Below are positions 11,973 to 49,051 of a stretch of DNA of 54,886 bases, one piece after another (positions within the stretch are counted from its first letter, which is position 1; the number at the start of each line of letters is the position of its first letter). The stretch spans positions 1 through 54,886 of the forward strand of contig CACOIV010000009.1 of assembly GCA_902627335.1 (NCBI GenBank), written 5' to 3'. The position numbers were made by a program, and so were the translations under genes. The stretch is from an uncultured Prochlorococcus sp. (GTDB lineage Bacteria > Cyanobacteriota > Cyanobacteriia > PCC-6307 > Cyanobiaceae). Below the pieces are notes generated by a model, which was not told the DNA's origin, ran no database searches, and worked only from the letters and a program-made list of their open reading frames with translations.

Positions 11973-12761
11973 ATGGCAAATAGTTGTTGCGGTAATTCTG
12001 AATCTGAAAATATTCAATTCAATCATAAAGAAGCGATACAAAATAGATACGGTTCTGCTGCGATAGAGAAAGAAAGTTGTTTATGTACGCCAGTTTCATT
12101 TAATCCAAAATATCTAGATGCAATTCCTCGAGAAGTAATTGAAAGAGATTATGGTTGTGGCGATCCAACAAAATATGTCAAGCAAAATGATGTAGTCTTA
12201 GACCTTGGGAGCGGTAGTGGAAAAAATGCATTCATTTGTGCCCAAATAGTTGGGAGAAATGGAAAAATTATAGGGGTAGATCAAAACAAAGACATGCTAA
12301 AACTTTCAAGAGATTCAATAGAATATGTCGCAAATAATATAGGTTATAAAAATACTCAATTTATTGAGGGATCTATTGAAAAACTTGATGAATTAAATAA
12401 TGAAAATCAACCCACTATTAAATCTTCATCCGTTGATATTATTTTAAGCAATTGCGTTTTAAATTTAGTTAATCCAGAATCAAGAAAGTCATTATTAAAA
12501 AATATCAAAAGAGTCCTTAAAGCGAATGGGAGAATTGCAATCAGCGATATTATTTCTAATAAAAAAGTGCCATTAAGTTTACAAAATGATCCGGATTTAT
12601 GGAGCGGATGCATTAGTGGAGCCTGGTATGAACCAGAATTCATTAGTGATTTTAAAGAGATTGGATTTAAAAATCTTAAATTTGCTGAAAGAAGTTCTGA
12701 ACCATGGAAAATAGTTGAAGATATAGAATTTAGAACAGTAACATTGGTTGGAAATATATAA
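11973..12761 (+). CDS. arsM: ArsM-like SAM-dependent methyltransferase
   Basis: Arsenite methyltransferase-type protein. The SAM motif is VVLDLGSGSG at about 74-83. The three cysteines that bind As(III) in characterised ArsM proteins have matching positions: YGCGDP (Cys62), LSNCVLNL (Cys161) and DLWSGCISGAW (Cys213). Additional cysteine pairs are at 5-6 and 36/38. 262 aa is somewhat shorter than many ArsM proteins because the C-terminal domain is reduced. It would methylate arsenite in the cytosol. A PLP enzyme follows after 9 bases in the same direction. Confidence 0.78.
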   Translation: MANSCCGNSESENIQFNHKEAIQNRYGSAAIEKESCLCTPVSFNPKYLDAIPREVIERDYGCGDPTKYVKQNDVVLDLGSGSGKNAFICAQIVGRNGKIIGVDQNKDMLKLSRDSIEYVANNIGYKNTQFIEGSIEKLDELNNENQPTIKSSSVDIILSNCVLNLVNPESRKSLLKNIKRVLKANGRIAISDIISNKKVPLSLQNDPDLWSGCISGAWYEPEFISDFKEIGFKNLKFAERSSEPWKIVEDIEFRTVTLVGNI

Positions 12762-43002: not shown

Positions 43003-43224
43003 TTACTTTTTGGGTGAGCCGCCTCTTCCAGTTATTACTTTAATTATTTGTTGAATAAGATTTGATTTATTTCTTTTATGGCTAGTATTCTTTGATAAAT
43101 GAGATAAATCTCTATAAAATCTCCTTGTAACTTCATCTTCTTCTTCTGAAGGCCATAACAAATTTGACCCCTCCTCAAATTCTTCAAAATATCTATTTTT
43201 TGATTTCTTATTCATTTTTTTCAA
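43003..43224 (-). CDS. Hypothetical basic protein, 73 aa
   Basis: Very charged: KKSKNRYFEEFEEGSNLLWP, then SEEEDEVTRRFYRDLSHLSK and a basic end (IQQIIKVITGRGGSPKK). Soluble. The start overlaps the 127-aa gene by 17 bases (or 8 if the Met at 43215 is used). Family not recognised. Lies 14 bases upstream of the crcB pair. Confidence 0.55.
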   Translation of the reverse strand: MKKMNKKSKNRYFEEFEEGSNLLWPSEEEDEVTRRFYRDLSHLSKNTSHKRNKSNLIQQIIKVITGRGGSPKK

Positions 43225-43591
43225 AAAGTTCTAAAAATTCATTTGTTTTCATATGATGAAAGCTTTTTTCTTTTATTGAATTGATTGCTTTTTCATAATA
43301 TCTATATCTCTTTTGATAATCACATAATAATATAATTACTCGCCAACGTTTCATATAAAATCTTCTCTCAATTTCATCTATCTTAAAATCTTCTGTTTGA
43401 GATCTATATTTATTATTCATATATTTTTTTTCTATCCACTCGAAAAGATCTTTTGCTTTTCCTTTAATTTTTCCATTTAGTATCCAATTTTTAATATAAA
43501 TATCATCTCCTTCTTCAAGGATGAAACATTTTTCTGCTGAAGGCAAAGTTAAGTCATGAAATCTTTCAACAAAGTCTTCTATAAGTTTCAT
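43208..43591 (-). CDS. Hypothetical protein, 127 aa
   Basis: Soluble, aromatic and charged. It has MKLIEDFVERFHDLTLPSAE, then a central helix (DLFEWIEKKYMNNKYRSQ) and a Tyr-rich part (LCDYQKRYRYYEKAINSI). No known motif. Overlaps the 73-aa gene, so the two are probably co-expressed and may act together. Confidence 0.6.
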   Translation of the reverse strand: MKLIEDFVERFHDLTLPSAEKCFILEEGDDIYIKNWILNGKIKGKAKDLFEWIEKKYMNNKYRSQTEDFKIDEIERRFYMKRWRVIILLCDYQKRYRYYEKAINSIKEKSFHHMKTNEFLELFEKNE

Positions 43592-43668
43592 AAAAATTCT
43601 TTTTATAAATATTTTAAATGAATTGAATTACTTATTTAATTAATTCATAAGTTTAATCATCTTATGAA

Positions 43669-44034
43669 CTATTGCGAATAGATAATTAATACATCATTAA
43701 AAGGCAAAGAAGTATTAATACTTTTTCCTATCTCGTACCATTTTTTTAGTTCGCCTTCAGACAATTTATAAAATCTTTTTGAATATGATGTATTTAAAAT
43801 TGAAGGTTCAACTCCAAAAATATCCCTAATATCACTGGGTTGATAAATTTCATCCAAATTACATTTATTCCATAATAATTGTTCTTTATTTGCTAATTTT
43901 TTATATATTATTTCTGGAATTATAACTTCCTCTGTCCAATCAGTTTCATATTTTTTTTTATCTTTAATAAGATCTTTCGCTTGCCTAGAATCTATCTGAA
44001 TCAAAAAATTCCTTAAATTTTTACTATCCATCAA
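43669..44034 (-). CDS. Hypothetical protein, 121 aa
   Basis: Soluble protein with EVIIPEIIYKKLANKEQLLW and a second half around PSILNTSYSKRFYKLSEGEL that ends INTSLPFNDVLIIYSQ. The start may be the second of two adjacent Met codons. No family recognised. Stands 8 bases downstream of the 34-aa membrane protein gene on the same strand. Confidence 0.6.
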   Translation of the reverse strand: MMDSKNLRNFLIQIDSRQAKDLIKDKKKYETDWTEEVIIPEIIYKKLANKEQLLWNKCNLDEIYQPSDIRDIFGVEPSILNTSYSKRFYKLSEGELKKWYEIGKSINTSLPFNDVLIIYSQ

Positions 44035-44302: not shown

Positions 44303-45487
44303 ATGCAAATAATTCTTCTTTTATCACTTTTATCATTAATTTTTATATTGGGTTCTATAAGTTTAGAAATCTATATGTTTAATAATGCTCCTTTCTTAAA
44401 AAATCAAGAATTTAAAAAACCGCTAGATACGAGCATCTCAATTATTATTCCAGCATTTAATGAAGAGAAAAATATCATTAGATGTCTAAAAGCTTTATCT
44501 TCAATAAAAAAACCATGTACAAAAATGGAGGTAATAGTAGTTGATGATTTAAGCGATGACAATACCATTTCAAGAGCTGAAAACTTTAAAGAAGATTTTA
44601 AAAAGAATTCAATTGGGATGAAAGTTATTTCTGCAGGTCAAAGACCTAAAGATAAAAATTGGGTAGGGAAAAATTGGGCATGCTACATAGGCACAAAAAA
44701 TATAGATTCAGAATGGTTATTATTTCTAGATGCAGACGTTGAAGTTAGCGAAAAATGTATTTTTAATGCTTTATCAAAATCTCAAAAAGATAATATTGAT
44801 TTACTATCATTAGCACCAAAGGTTAATTGCAATTGCCTTGCAGAATGGATTGTCCAACCCATAATGACAAGTTTACTTATAATTGGATTTCCTATTTCAA
44901 ATACTAATAATCCTAAAAGTTCAACTGCATTTGCAGCTGGACCTTTTATGCTTTTTAAAGCAAATTCTTATTTTAAAATTGGAGGTCATGAAGGAACATT
45001 TAATAAGGTAGTTGAAGATTTAGCTTTAGCAGAAAAAATAAAAGGCAGCAAATTAAAATTAAATTTCTTGATTGCCATTAAAGATGTTTCATTAAATATG
45101 TATAGTGATCTAAGTGCATTAATTGAAGGTTGGAGTAAGAATTGGTTTTTAGGAGTAGATAAAAATATCTTTAAATCATTATCAGCTTCTACTTTTGTGT
45201 TGATATCAAATACTATTCCTTGGGTAATAATAATGTTTTGCACAACGTGTTATTTATTAAATGAAAGATCTTTGATCGTAAATATTACATTTCTTATATC
45301 AGCTTTAGCAATCGCTTCATATGGTATTAAAAGATATTGGTTAAGAATTAAATATAATATCCCAAATGATTTATGGTATCTAAATGGAATTGGAGGATTA
45401 ATAGTTACTTATATAAGTTTTATCTCAATTTATAAAACATTTACTGGTATTGGATGGACCTGGAAAGGTAGAAAATTAAATAAATAA
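44303..45487 (+). CDS. Membrane-anchored GT2 glycosyltransferase
   Basis: 394 aa. N-terminal TM anchor, then the GT-A domain: SIIIPAFNEEKN at 46-57, VVDDLSDDNT at 79-88, the metal-binding DAD at 143-145, and the VVEDLALAEKI motif. Three or four hydrophobic segments follow at the C-terminus. Layout resembles hopanoid/carotenoid glycosyltransferases such as HpnI and CrtQ types; the acceptor is unknown. Converges on the methyltransferase-dehydrogenase-oxidase cassette. Confidence 0.85.
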   Translation: MQIILLLSLLSLIFILGSISLEIYMFNNAPFLKNQEFKKPLDTSISIIIPAFNEEKNIIRCLKALSSIKKPCTKMEVIVVDDLSDDNTISRAENFKEDFKKNSIGMKVISAGQRPKDKNWVGKNWACYIGTKNIDSEWLLFLDADVEVSEKCIFNALSKSQKDNIDLLSLAPKVNCNCLAEWIVQPIMTSLLIIGFPISNTNNPKSSTAFAAGPFMLFKANSYFKIGGHEGTFNKVVEDLALAEKIKGSKLKLNFLIAIKDVSLNMYSDLSALIEGWSKNWFLGVDKNIFKSLSASTFVLISNTIPWVIIMFCTTCYLLNERSLIVNITFLISALAIASYGIKRYWLRIKYNIPNDLWYLNGIGGLIVTYISFISIYKTFTGIGWTWKGRKLNK

Positions 45488-45580: not shown

Positions 45581-45754
45581 ATGAAATCAAAAAAATTGAA
45601 TTTAGAGTATGTTTCTCAAGAAAGAAAAGAATTATTTATTTATTTTTTTGCTAGTGCTGGTCTAATAGTATTTCTTGCTGAATTTTTTAATTATTTATAC
45701 CTTCATAATCCAAATTTTCATATGTTTGTTCAAAGTAAAGGAATTTTTCTTTAA
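45581..45754 (+). CDS. Small membrane protein, 57 aa
   Basis: A charged N-terminus (KSKKLNLEYVSQERKELF), one TM around 19-36 (IYFFASAGLIVFLAEFFN), then YLYLHNPNFHMFVQSKGIFL. The stop TAA overlaps the stop of the convergent flavoprotein gene at 45751-45754. Family unknown. Confidence 0.55.
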   Translation: MKSKKLNLEYVSQERKELFIYFFASAGLIVFLAEFFNYLYLHNPNFHMFVQSKGIFL

Positions 45755-46935
45755 GTTAAGGAATATCTGTTTAATTCCCAACAATTAATATCAAAGCTAG
45801 TTTCTTTTTTTAAAGCTTTTTCAGCTAGACATTGTCCAATAAGTGGAGCAAATTTAAAAGCCTGCCCAGATCCTCCCGAAAAAACAGTTATATTTGCTTT
45901 CGGTTTATCAAGGATAAAGTTTACATCTTTAGTCATAGTATAAGGACTTACAAAAATTTCATCACAAGAGATTACCCCATTCAGATTATTGAAAATAAAT
46001 TTATCTAACATATCTTTCAAAGGTCTTATGAATGGTTGATCCATAACTGAAGAGTCATTTCCTACTAGTTCATCTGGGGACCAATCAATACCAACTTTTA
46101 TTCTAGGTAAATTATTTTTATTTCTGCTCATAACAGGAAATCCGTAGTACAAACCACCATCTTCATTGCGGGCTTTTTGAAAACAAAACCATTGTGGGTA
46201 ATCATTTATGAAACTCTCCTCAACAATATAATGTCCCCAAACCATTGGCCAAATTTTGACATCTAATTTTAAACCTAAAGGTTCTAGCAAGCTATTCGAC
46301 CACATTCCAGATGCAACAATAAGCTCATCAAAAGCGACTTCAAAATTATTATTAATTAGCAGAGTTCTATTATTTTCATCAATCTTATTAATTTGACAAT
46401 TTTCAAAAATATTATTGCCATTATCTTTAATCGTTTTGATCCAGTATTTTATTGCAATTTCACTAAAAATAGCACCTGCACTAGGCTCAAAAAGGCCAAC
46501 AAAATCATCTTTCGCGTTTATTGGGAATCTCTTAGAAATCTCATCTGATTTTAAAAATTCGTATGGAATATTTTGTTCATCCATTACTTTTTGAGCGCCA
46601 GGTATTGATCCCTCTATTGTTTCTTCATTCCAAGACTCACCATAAAATAGTAAACCATGTTCCTTTCTCAAAGGATTTTCTGATTTTATTTCTTGTAAGG
46701 CCCAGAGCCTATTAGCTTCTTGAGCAAGTTTACATAGTACGGGATCCGAATACATTTCCCTATACATTCTTGACTCCCCATAACTACTTCCATCGATATG
46801 GGCAAGTTTTGAACTTTCAAAAACTGCAACATTTTTAAAGCCCATTTCACTAAGAGATGCTGCTGCACTTAATCCAGCCATACCTCCTCCCACAATTGCA
46901 ATATCAATATTTTTTGGAAGATCTAAACTTTGCAT
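45751..46935 (-). CDS. SolA/sarcosine-oxidase-like FAD amino acid oxidase
   Basis: FAD-dependent oxidoreductase of the DAO/MSOX family, 394 aa. Rossmann motif IAIVGGGMAGLSAAASL; flavin-loop GSSYGESRMYR at 49-59; C-terminal SGGSGQAFKFAPLIG at 353-367. In monomeric sarcosine oxidase a Cys in the CMYTMTPD segment binds FAD covalently; here that segment reads SPYTMTKD (Ser330), so FAD may be non-covalent. The family oxidises N-methyl or small secondary amino acids, releasing H2O2. Third gene of a TAATG-coupled cassette. Confidence 0.85.
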   Translation of the reverse strand: MQSLDLPKNIDIAIVGGGMAGLSAAASLSEMGFKNVAVFESSKLAHIDGSSYGESRMYREMYSDPVLCKLAQEANRLWALQEIKSENPLRKEHGLLFYGESWNEETIEGSIPGAQKVMDEQNIPYEFLKSDEISKRFPINAKDDFVGLFEPSAGAIFSEIAIKYWIKTIKDNGNNIFENCQINKIDENNRTLLINNNFEVAFDELIVASGMWSNSLLEPLGLKLDVKIWPMVWGHYIVEESFINDYPQWFCFQKARNEDGGLYYGFPVMSRNKNNLPRIKVGIDWSPDELVGNDSSVMDQPFIRPLKDMLDKFIFNNLNGVISCDEIFVSPYTMTKDVNFILDKPKANITVFSGGSGQAFKFAPLIGQCLAEKALKKETSFDINCWELNRYSLT

Positions 46936-47984
46936 TAAGCTAAAAAGGTCTTACCTATTATTGTATCTTGCTCATTTTGAATTAATTCTAAAGTTTCTTC
47001 AGTCGTTAAACCACTTTGAATCAGCGAAAGAAAAGCAAAACATTTATTTCTAACTGAATCTTTAACGAATTCATACACTTTTTCAGAAGTAGCTTTGCTC
47101 CACTCATGTGGCGCATACCTCTCTATGGAATCTCCAATTACTGCTCCAGCATTTACCAATGGATCAGGTATTATGGTTATTTTTGCCTCTTTTAATTTCT
47201 TTGGAATAATTTCATTTATAAAGGGCGCATTAGCTGCTGGGATGATCGCTTTTTTATCTAAAAGGAAAGATGCATTATAAGTATTTATAAGACCAGAAAT
47301 AGAGCAAGGGAAAAGCACATCAAATTTATTTTTATACCAATTAGCATCATCACCTAATGAAATCGTTCCTTCGATATTTGTCTTACTAACATCTTTATCA
47401 ACAACATAGGTTTTAAACCCTTTTCGAACTAATTCACTAGCTACTATTTTCCCAACAGCACCACATCCATGAACCAGTACCCCATTAGACAAATCAGAAG
47501 GGAAGCATTTATAAAAAGACTCAAATGCGCCAACTACACCTTTTGCTGTAGCAGTACTAGCATCAACTTCACTATTAACTGCAGCAAGTACATGGGGAGT
47601 TAACTTAAAAAGTTTATGCATATCCTTTTCAGTAGTATTCAAATCACAACCTGTAATCATTTTTCCATCTAAGTTTTCAAGTAAATTTGATGTTATAGAA
47701 ATTAATTTATCTTTTACTGAATGAATATTTGATGATCTTGCAACAATTTTGCCTCCAGAAAAACCCGTAGAATATAAATCATGTTTTACTTTCATTAAGT
47801 TTGCCAAACGAAAACCATCTCTAAGGCAATCAATATCAGTTTCGTATGAAAGTAATCTTAAACCTCCATTAGCTGGTTTACTATTTTCATTATTTTCAGC
47901 CACAATAAAAACAGATAAATCTTCACTGATATGTTCTGCTAGAACTCCTATTTCTCTCTTTTTTAAGGTTTGAAGATTAATCAT
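46935..47984 (-). CDS. Leucine/Val/Phe dehydrogenase-like amino acid dehydrogenase
   Basis: 349-residue ELFV-family enzyme of the leucine dehydrogenase branch. Substrate lysine in STGFSGGKIVAR (Lys79), catalytic Asp in GCDLNTT (Asp114), NAD motif VHGCGAVGK at 171-179, and PDPLVNAGAVIG, which matches PDYxxNAGG of leucine dehydrogenase. Interconverts an L-amino acid and its 2-oxo acid with ammonia. Middle gene of the cassette, sharing one base with each neighbour. Confidence 0.88.
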   Translation of the reverse strand: MINLQTLKKREIGVLAEHISEDLSVFIVAENNENSKPANGGLRLLSYETDIDCLRDGFRLANLMKVKHDLYSTGFSGGKIVARSSNIHSVKDKLISITSNLLENLDGKMITGCDLNTTEKDMHKLFKLTPHVLAAVNSEVDASTATAKGVVGAFESFYKCFPSDLSNGVLVHGCGAVGKIVASELVRKGFKTYVVDKDVSKTNIEGTISLGDDANWYKNKFDVLFPCSISGLINTYNASFLLDKKAIIPAANAPFINEIIPKKLKEAKITIIPDPLVNAGAVIGDSIERYAPHEWSKATSEKVYEFVKDSVRNKCFAFLSLIQSGLTTEETLELIQNEQDTIIGKTFLA

Positions 47985-49051
47985 TACACTTTCTCCATCA
48001 TTAAATGATGTTCAACATAATCCAGGCTCCAATTATTGGGATCTAACTTAATTCTCTTTTTAAGTCGTTCAAAAAGGATATCCACTGGATTCTCTTCTCT
48101 TGAAGAAATATCACTTAAGGCAGCAATAAAACTATGCCTACTCCAACTTCTTATCGTCTCCATTAAACCAGAAGCAAATTCGTCTAAATTATTATTTTTT
48201 TCCCATTCTTTTTTATATGGACAATCTACATAAACGGTTCTTTCTTCTATTAATCGTAGACCATTTTTATAACTTTCAGAGTTTTTATTATTAAGAGGAC
48301 TTAGAAATTCCTCAGGAGATTTATAAAAATTTTGTATAGTGCCTTTTTTATATTCTTCACGTGTTATGAGTCCCTCTTCTAATAATTCGTGCCATATATT
48401 ATGAATTTGATCATGCACATTTAGTGTCTTGCCTCCATTATTTCCTAAATATCTATTATGAGAGTCTCTTGATAAATTTACTGTAAGCAACTTTCCCCCA
48501 ACTTTTAATTCTTTACTGCGCATAAATAAAATTTGATTCCAATCTAAAAGAGCCTGCTTTTGGAAGTCTTCAAAAGCCTCTTTATTACCTGAAGCTAAAA
48601 CATGAGTATGATTATGCAAACTATCAACTTTTATATTAAGCCAATGCATTGCTGTAGCTGAAAATCCAAAATCAAGAAATTCCGAAGGCACTAATTGGTC
48701 ATAAAAGCTTCCGCCACAAAGGAAAGAGGAGTAATTTTGATAAGAATTTGAATGAACTGAAATATTGTTCATTAAGGTTTTATTATCATTAGAAAACAAG
48801 TCATTTCCAATTAGAGAGACATAAGCCTCAGGATTAGAGATTTTGACTTTTTTAATTAACTTACTCCAGAATTCAATAGCTGTTCCACCATCAGCAGCTC
48901 CGAAATCCATCATCAGAATATTTTTAGAATTAATCCCAGCTATGCAATCTAAACCCCAATCAGTTGCCAGATCTATACATAACTTAGCCCCAGCAGTTTG
49001 CTCACTGTAGCCTTTTGTCATTGAGATAACCATCAAATATAAAGGAAACAT
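47984..49051 (-). CDS. SABATH-family carboxyl methyltransferase
   Basis: SAM-dependent methyltransferase of the SABATH (plant salicylate/indole-acetate carboxyl methyltransferase) family, 355 aa. SAM site MDFGAADGGTA at 48-58; GNDLFSND at 82-89 matches the family LPxNDFN motif; GGSFYDQLVP at 113-122 matches PGSFYxRLFP; FSATAMHWLN at 130-139 matches SSYSLHWLS. Expected to make a methyl ester of a small acid. The start could be Met7 or Met11 (49021) rather than 49051. First gene of the cassette. Confidence 0.85.
   Translation of the reverse strand: MFPLYLMVISMTKGYSEQTAGAKLCIDLATDWGLDCIAGINSKNILMMDFGAADGGTAIEFWSKLIKKVKISNPEAYVSLIGNDLFSNDNKTLMNNISVHSNSYQNYSSFLCGGSFYDQLVPSEFLDFGFSATAMHWLNIKVDSLHNHTHVLASGNKEAFEDFQKQALLDWNQILFMRSKELKVGGKLLTVNLSRDSHNRYLGNNGGKTLNVHDQIHNIWHELLEEGLITREEYKKGTIQNFYKSPEEFLSPLNNKNSESYKNGLRLIEERTVYVDCPYKKEWEKNNNLDEFASGLMETIRSWSRHSFIAALSDISSREENPVDILFERLKKRIKLDPNNWSLDYVEHHLMMEKV

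Follow-up and report, generated by a model that had tools for sequence, protein, structure and literature searches.

Three adjoining genes in the genome of an uncultured Prochlorococcus, joined in Synechococcus by a gene for a betaine/carnitine/choline transporter (BCCT), probably serve marine picocyanobacteria as an operon for making homarine (N-methylpicolinate), an osmolyte of the pyridine betaine type. With a shade less assurance the genes can also be assigned to steps, whereby homarine would be made by an ELFV-family lysine 2-dehydrogenase, an oxidase that resembles NikD but lacks covalent flavin, and a SABATH enzyme that N-methylates picolinate; this pathway would be close to universal in marine Synechococcus and would persist in Prochlorococcus from iron-limited waters replete in nitrogen. 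The gene families, strict linkage, conserved junctions, BCCT partner and residue patterns described below are observed directly; from these we infer every substrate, the order of the reactions and the product.

Organization of the cassette

The window, that is the whole stretch of DNA that was analysed, is 54,886 nucleotides long, and the features of the cassette are as follows.

47984..49051, minus strand: MT, a SABATH-family SAM-dependent methyltransferase, proposed picolinate N-methyltransferase (PF03492, 4.3e-25, 89 bits)
46935..47984, minus strand: DH, Glu/Leu/Phe/Val dehydrogenase family, proposed L-lysine 2-dehydrogenase (PF00208/PF02812)
45751..46935, minus strand: OX, an MSOX/NikD-family FAD oxidase, proposed piperideine-2-carboxylate oxidase (DAO, 4.8e-36)
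47982..47986, minus strand: MT/DH stop/start overlap TAATG, seen in the sequence and kept in relatives
46933..46937, minus strand: DH/OX stop/start overlap TAATG, seen in the sequence and in relatives with a close junction

An earlier note on this DNA had described three minus-strand genes overlapping as TAATG at 47984 and at 46935, and both the open reading frames and the letters at the junctions (gtgTAATGatt between MT and DH, gctTAATGcaa between DH and OX) confirm this. In the eight Prochlorococcus relatives compared, MT and DH meet without exception at TAATG or TGATG, while DH and OX either overlap or are separated by a gap of a few bases. The genes also abut or overlap at both junctions (TAATG, TGATG or ATGA) in the nine Synechococcus loci examined. 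Since they are conserved across the Prochlorococcus relatives, the tight junctions, that of MT/DH foremost, are not due to chance. The annotated start of MT at 49051 is probably too early, and the true start would be at 49033 or 49021, because homology in several relatives begins at residue 5 of the window protein and the Met codons held in common are residues 7 and 11. The source of the window is a Prochlorococcus near the HNLC2 population genome, with whose record its MT shares 98% identity.

A glycosyltransferase and small proteins that flank the cassette (window 44303-45487 and 43208-44034) recur nearby in other Prochlorococcus in varying order, so that the cassette occupies one variable region of the genus. 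Elsewhere in the window, positions 11973-12761 resemble an arsenite methyltransferase gene and are followed by an aminotransferase-like gene (both labelled by eye).

Distribution and linkage

A search for the three genes as neighbours in other genomes had been set beforehand as a test that could refute their joint action, and no refutation resulted: the MT profile matches 53 of 300 Cyanobiaceae genomes, a search of the same 300 with OX returned the identical 53, and MT, DH and OX are neighbours by their coordinates in every one of these carriers. The idea that the three genes act together is thus upheld by their shared presence and absence and constant adjacency, and that of an amino-acid-derived substrate stands by family inference. 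The DH search found the 53 genomes and one more (G179), where a DH relative from another genus of Cyanobiaceae (L139 7549-8673) is 48% identical and has the same pocket residues (see below); no MT, OX or BCCT gene was found near it.

Nearly all of the sampled marine Synechococcus carry the cassette, together with a few Prochlorococcus. In the latter genus MT was detected in 10 of 151 genomes, with DH adjoining in all ten, together with OX or at least its beginning, and the cassette is absent from genomes taken to be those of MED4, MIT9301, MIT9312, AS9601 and SS120. The wider sample of the phylum gave a single match to the MT profile outside Cyanobiaceae, to one fragment (E 3e-4), and a phage search with MT gave no match. 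Frameshifts split MT in two genomes, G381 (L072) and G384 (L073), the second of which is presumably CC9902, with DH, OX and BCCT intact in both. These may be natural knockouts or sequencing errors; if they are real, both strains would be expected to be without homarine. OX is frameshifted near residue 54 in another genome (G260, L067 5963-7148).

Further afield, a plasmid of Rhizobium sp. CB3171 (L130 9250-14363) encodes a full-length MT homologue (31% identical) in transposon-rich DNA. A different FAD-binding oxidoreductase follows the homologue, and before it come an EamA-like transporter and a radical-SAM-like protein (labelled by eye). This locus was rejected as a second cassette, as its FAD enzyme matches OX at no better than E 0.008 over short pieces and DH is absent.

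A BCCT transporter gene as fourth member

In all 50 carriers outside Prochlorococcus the gene directly downstream of OX encodes a BCCT transporter. The match is strong (about 430 bits), and the gene is next after OX in Synechococcus loci L059-L068 and also in the two loci with a split MT. Across the 300 genomes, BCCT scored above the Pfam cut-off in 51, these being the 50 carriers and one Prochlorococcus carrier (G022) in which the gene sits elsewhere, not beside the cassette; none of the cassette-less genomes among the 300 had a BCCT above that cut-off. Two genomes of the same Synechococcus genus, both near-complete, have neither MT nor BCCT. Searches of the Prochlorococcus carriers G041, G092 and G113 found no BCCT gene, nor was one found in the window's own genome, which is 86% complete. 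The lack of an adjoining BCCT gene beside the Prochlorococcus cassettes counts against the homarine reading.

The dehydrogenase

DH was correctly placed by the earlier note at family level, as were MT and OX (ELFV_dehydrog 53 bits, SABATH 89 bits, DAO 125 bits). Both of its domains (PF02812 and PF00208) are present, K67, K79 and D114 (the catalytic Lys/Lys/Asp) are invariant, and the dinucleotide motif GCGAVG is kept. In GdhA and leucine dehydrogenase two pocket positions accommodate the side chain of the substrate, there being a lysine for the carboxylate of glutamate and hydrophobic residues for leucine. Alignment with leucine dehydrogenase (1leh) and E. coli GdhA puts an invariant Asn39 of DH at the position of GdhA K92 and LeuDH L40, and an invariant Asp285 at that of GdhA S380 and LeuDH V294, so the hydrophobic pocket of leucine dehydrogenase (L40, V294) is not kept. 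A polar, acidic pocket of this kind would suit a cationic side chain, and lysine is preferred to leucine as the likely substrate because of Asn39 and Asp285. Leucine as the substrate thus found no support, and leucine catabolism was rejected as the best reading, both on these pocket residues and on the partner genes.

The oxidase

OX is closest to nikkomycin NikD among solved structures. A profile of 12 OX proteins searched against the PDB scored best with NikD (150 bits), ahead of MSOX (131) and N-methyltryptophan oxidase (111), so that SolA/MSOX enzymes, to which the earlier note had likened OX, gave way to NikD as the nearest for the OX family. Most Synechococcus OX proteins share 32-33% of their residues with NikD and about 25% with MSOX, whereas those of Prochlorococcus are equally distant from the two. 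NikD converts piperideine-2-carboxylate to picolinate. Its residues R50, R53, E101, Y258 and K358 are all invariant in OX, where R56, R59, Y264 and K361 include the active-site Arg pair and Lys of MSOX and NikD, and where E108 corresponds to NikD E101, a position at which MSOX has Ala102. The alignment is gapped around NikD D276 and MSOX K265/H269. OX has no counterpart of the cysteine to which FAD is covalently bound (C315 in MSOX, C321 in NikD): S330 stands in the MSOX column and F or V in the NikD column. An invariant Gln358 replaces NikD Trp355. Both replacements, Ser330 for the flavin Cys and Gln358 for the Trp, count against the homarine reading, and since the covalent-flavin Cys is missing the chemistry or electron acceptor of OX may differ from that of NikD.

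The methyltransferase

The score of MT against PF03492 (89 bits) lies well above the curated cut-off of 29.8, and its nearest solved relatives are a bacterial fatty-acid O-methyltransferase and SABATH enzymes of plants, among which are N-methyltransferases from the caffeine pathway. In alignments with 1m6e and 3b5i, an HWL/MWL block places an invariant W137 at the position of Trp151 in SAMT, which lines the carboxylate site of the substrate. The Pfam and PDB alignments begin near residue 41 of MT, leaving the substrate-binding Gln25 region of SAMT outside them. SABATH enzymes methylate carboxyls and ring nitrogens. The caffeine-pathway enzymes, of the same family as MT, methylate a heteroaromatic ring nitrogen, but unlike MT they are plant enzymes and act on purines. 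The family is best known for carboxyl methyltransferases, and we know of no SABATH picolinate N-methyltransferase; both points count against the homarine reading. An AlphaFold model of MT and a structure prediction for OX, each built on an eight-row Prochlorococcus alignment, were poor (pLDDT 49 and 55, respectively) and were set aside, so the pocket claims come from the alignments. Transcripts of a Synechococcus 'SAM dependent carboxyl methyltransferase' (annotated crtF) rise under iron limitation (PMC9723758), and this gene is possibly the MT of the cassette.

Proposed pathway

In the proposed route, DH would oxidatively deaminate L-lysine at C2 to give 2-oxo-6-aminohexanoate, which would cyclise spontaneously to piperideine-2-carboxylate. 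OX would then take this compound to picolinate in a four-electron oxidation, with two H2O2 formed if the acceptor is O2, and MT would carry out the SAM-dependent N-methylation of the ring nitrogen of picolinate, yielding homarine. In Synechococcus, the BCCT protein would serve in retrieval or uptake of the betaine.

The same passage from lysine through piperideine-2-carboxylate to picolinate occurs in the nikkomycin picolinate module (NikC and NikD), in which the lysine 2-aminotransferase NikC deaminates, NikD oxidises, and picolinate is built into the antibiotic. The cassette differs from it in having an ELFV dehydrogenase in place of the aminotransferase, no Cys for covalent FAD, and a picolinate that would be methylated. 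Glycine betaine synthesis in marine Synechococcus (GSMT/SDMT with ProVWX) is likewise a SAM-dependent route to a betaine osmolyte with linked uptake in marine cells, but it uses another methyltransferase family, starts from glycine rather than lysine and leads to another product.

One of the searched genomes, which we take to be that of Synechococcus WH7803, has the intact four-gene operon. Homarine has been measured in both axenic Synechococcus strains tested, at up to 18 mM in WH8102 and about 0.2 mM in WH7803 (corrected values; PMC8269262, PMC10134881). The roughly 100-fold lower content of WH7803 than of WH8102, despite its operon, counts against the homarine reading. WH8102 lies outside the searched genome set and very probably carries the operon: its BetT gene SYNW0229 is within the predicted operon SYNW0229-0233 (PMC2874817), the gene number and neighbours of which fit the order BCCT-OX-DH-MT-Ham1.

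Alternative readings

The cluster itself has been reported before, among ecologically distributed gene clusters. It is very probably the same as leuDH-soxA-CK_00001744, which Prochlorococcus carries in iron-limited HNLC waters and most Synechococcus have as well, and for which nitrogen acquisition by release of ammonium from branched-chain amino acids was proposed (PMC10119275). A described pathway with this set of genes was not found among open-licence full texts, so the earlier statement to that effect stands to that extent, although the cluster was known. The published interpretation used neither the methyltransferase family nor the BCCT partner, unlike the homarine reading. We consider it quite improbable that DH serves to release ammonium by deaminating amino acids, branched-chain or other, with MT and OX as accessories, even though DH carries the family label of leucine dehydrogenase, as the hydrophobic pocket is lost, N39 and D285 are invariant, and the strictly linked methyltransferase and betaine transporter are left unexplained. 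The HNLC pattern fits a nitrogenous osmolyte equally well, since the glycine-betaine cluster of Synechococcus is likewise HNLC-enriched (PMC10119275).

The operon might instead work in the catabolic direction, with BCCT importing a methylated amine or betaine, OX oxidising an amino acid that is cyclic or N-methylated and DH deaminating the product. Demethylation is common among MSOX-family enzymes and BCCT proteins are importers, yet the first gene of the operon encodes a SAM-consuming methyltransferase, axenic cells on inorganic medium accumulate homarine, and, as noted above, searches of several Prochlorococcus carriers and of the incomplete window genome found no BCCT gene, all of which makes this direction very improbable. 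A different methylated product, such as a betaine distinct from homarine or an ester formed by methylating a 2-oxo or pyridine carboxylate, is also unlikely: SABATH enzymes mostly esterify carboxyls and the substrate of DH is itself inferred, but an ester has no need of a betaine transporter, and a NikD-like OX together with an acidic DH pocket fit the route from lysine to picolinate. The methyl ester and the catabolic route offered by the earlier note are accordingly less likely than an N-methylated betaine, which is favoured because of the BCCT gene in the Synechococcus operon and the homarine of axenic Synechococcus.

Significance for picocyanobacteria

A literature search among open-licence full texts found no published genes for homarine biosynthesis, and in 2021 genetic information on the synthesis was stated to be lacking (PMC8269247). 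Homarine catabolism was published in 2026, going by a citation in PMC13390433. In ocean particles homarine ranks with the more abundant nitrogenous metabolites, and a dedicated bacterial pathway exists for its breakdown. On the homarine reading, MIT9515, MIT9215, MIT9201, MIT9401, CC9605, CC9311 and RCC307 are predicted to be makers, and MED4, MIT9301, AS9601, MIT9312 and SS120 non-makers, probably joined by CC9902 provided that its frameshift is genuine. The records name MIT9201 and MIT9401, and the other genomes are taken to be those of the strains listed. If the reading is true, one operon would identify the homarine makers among picocyanobacteria, the pair annotated as 'leucine dehydrogenase / sarcosine oxidase' would become part of osmolyte synthesis, and homarine production would be mappable in metagenomes and metatranscriptomes.
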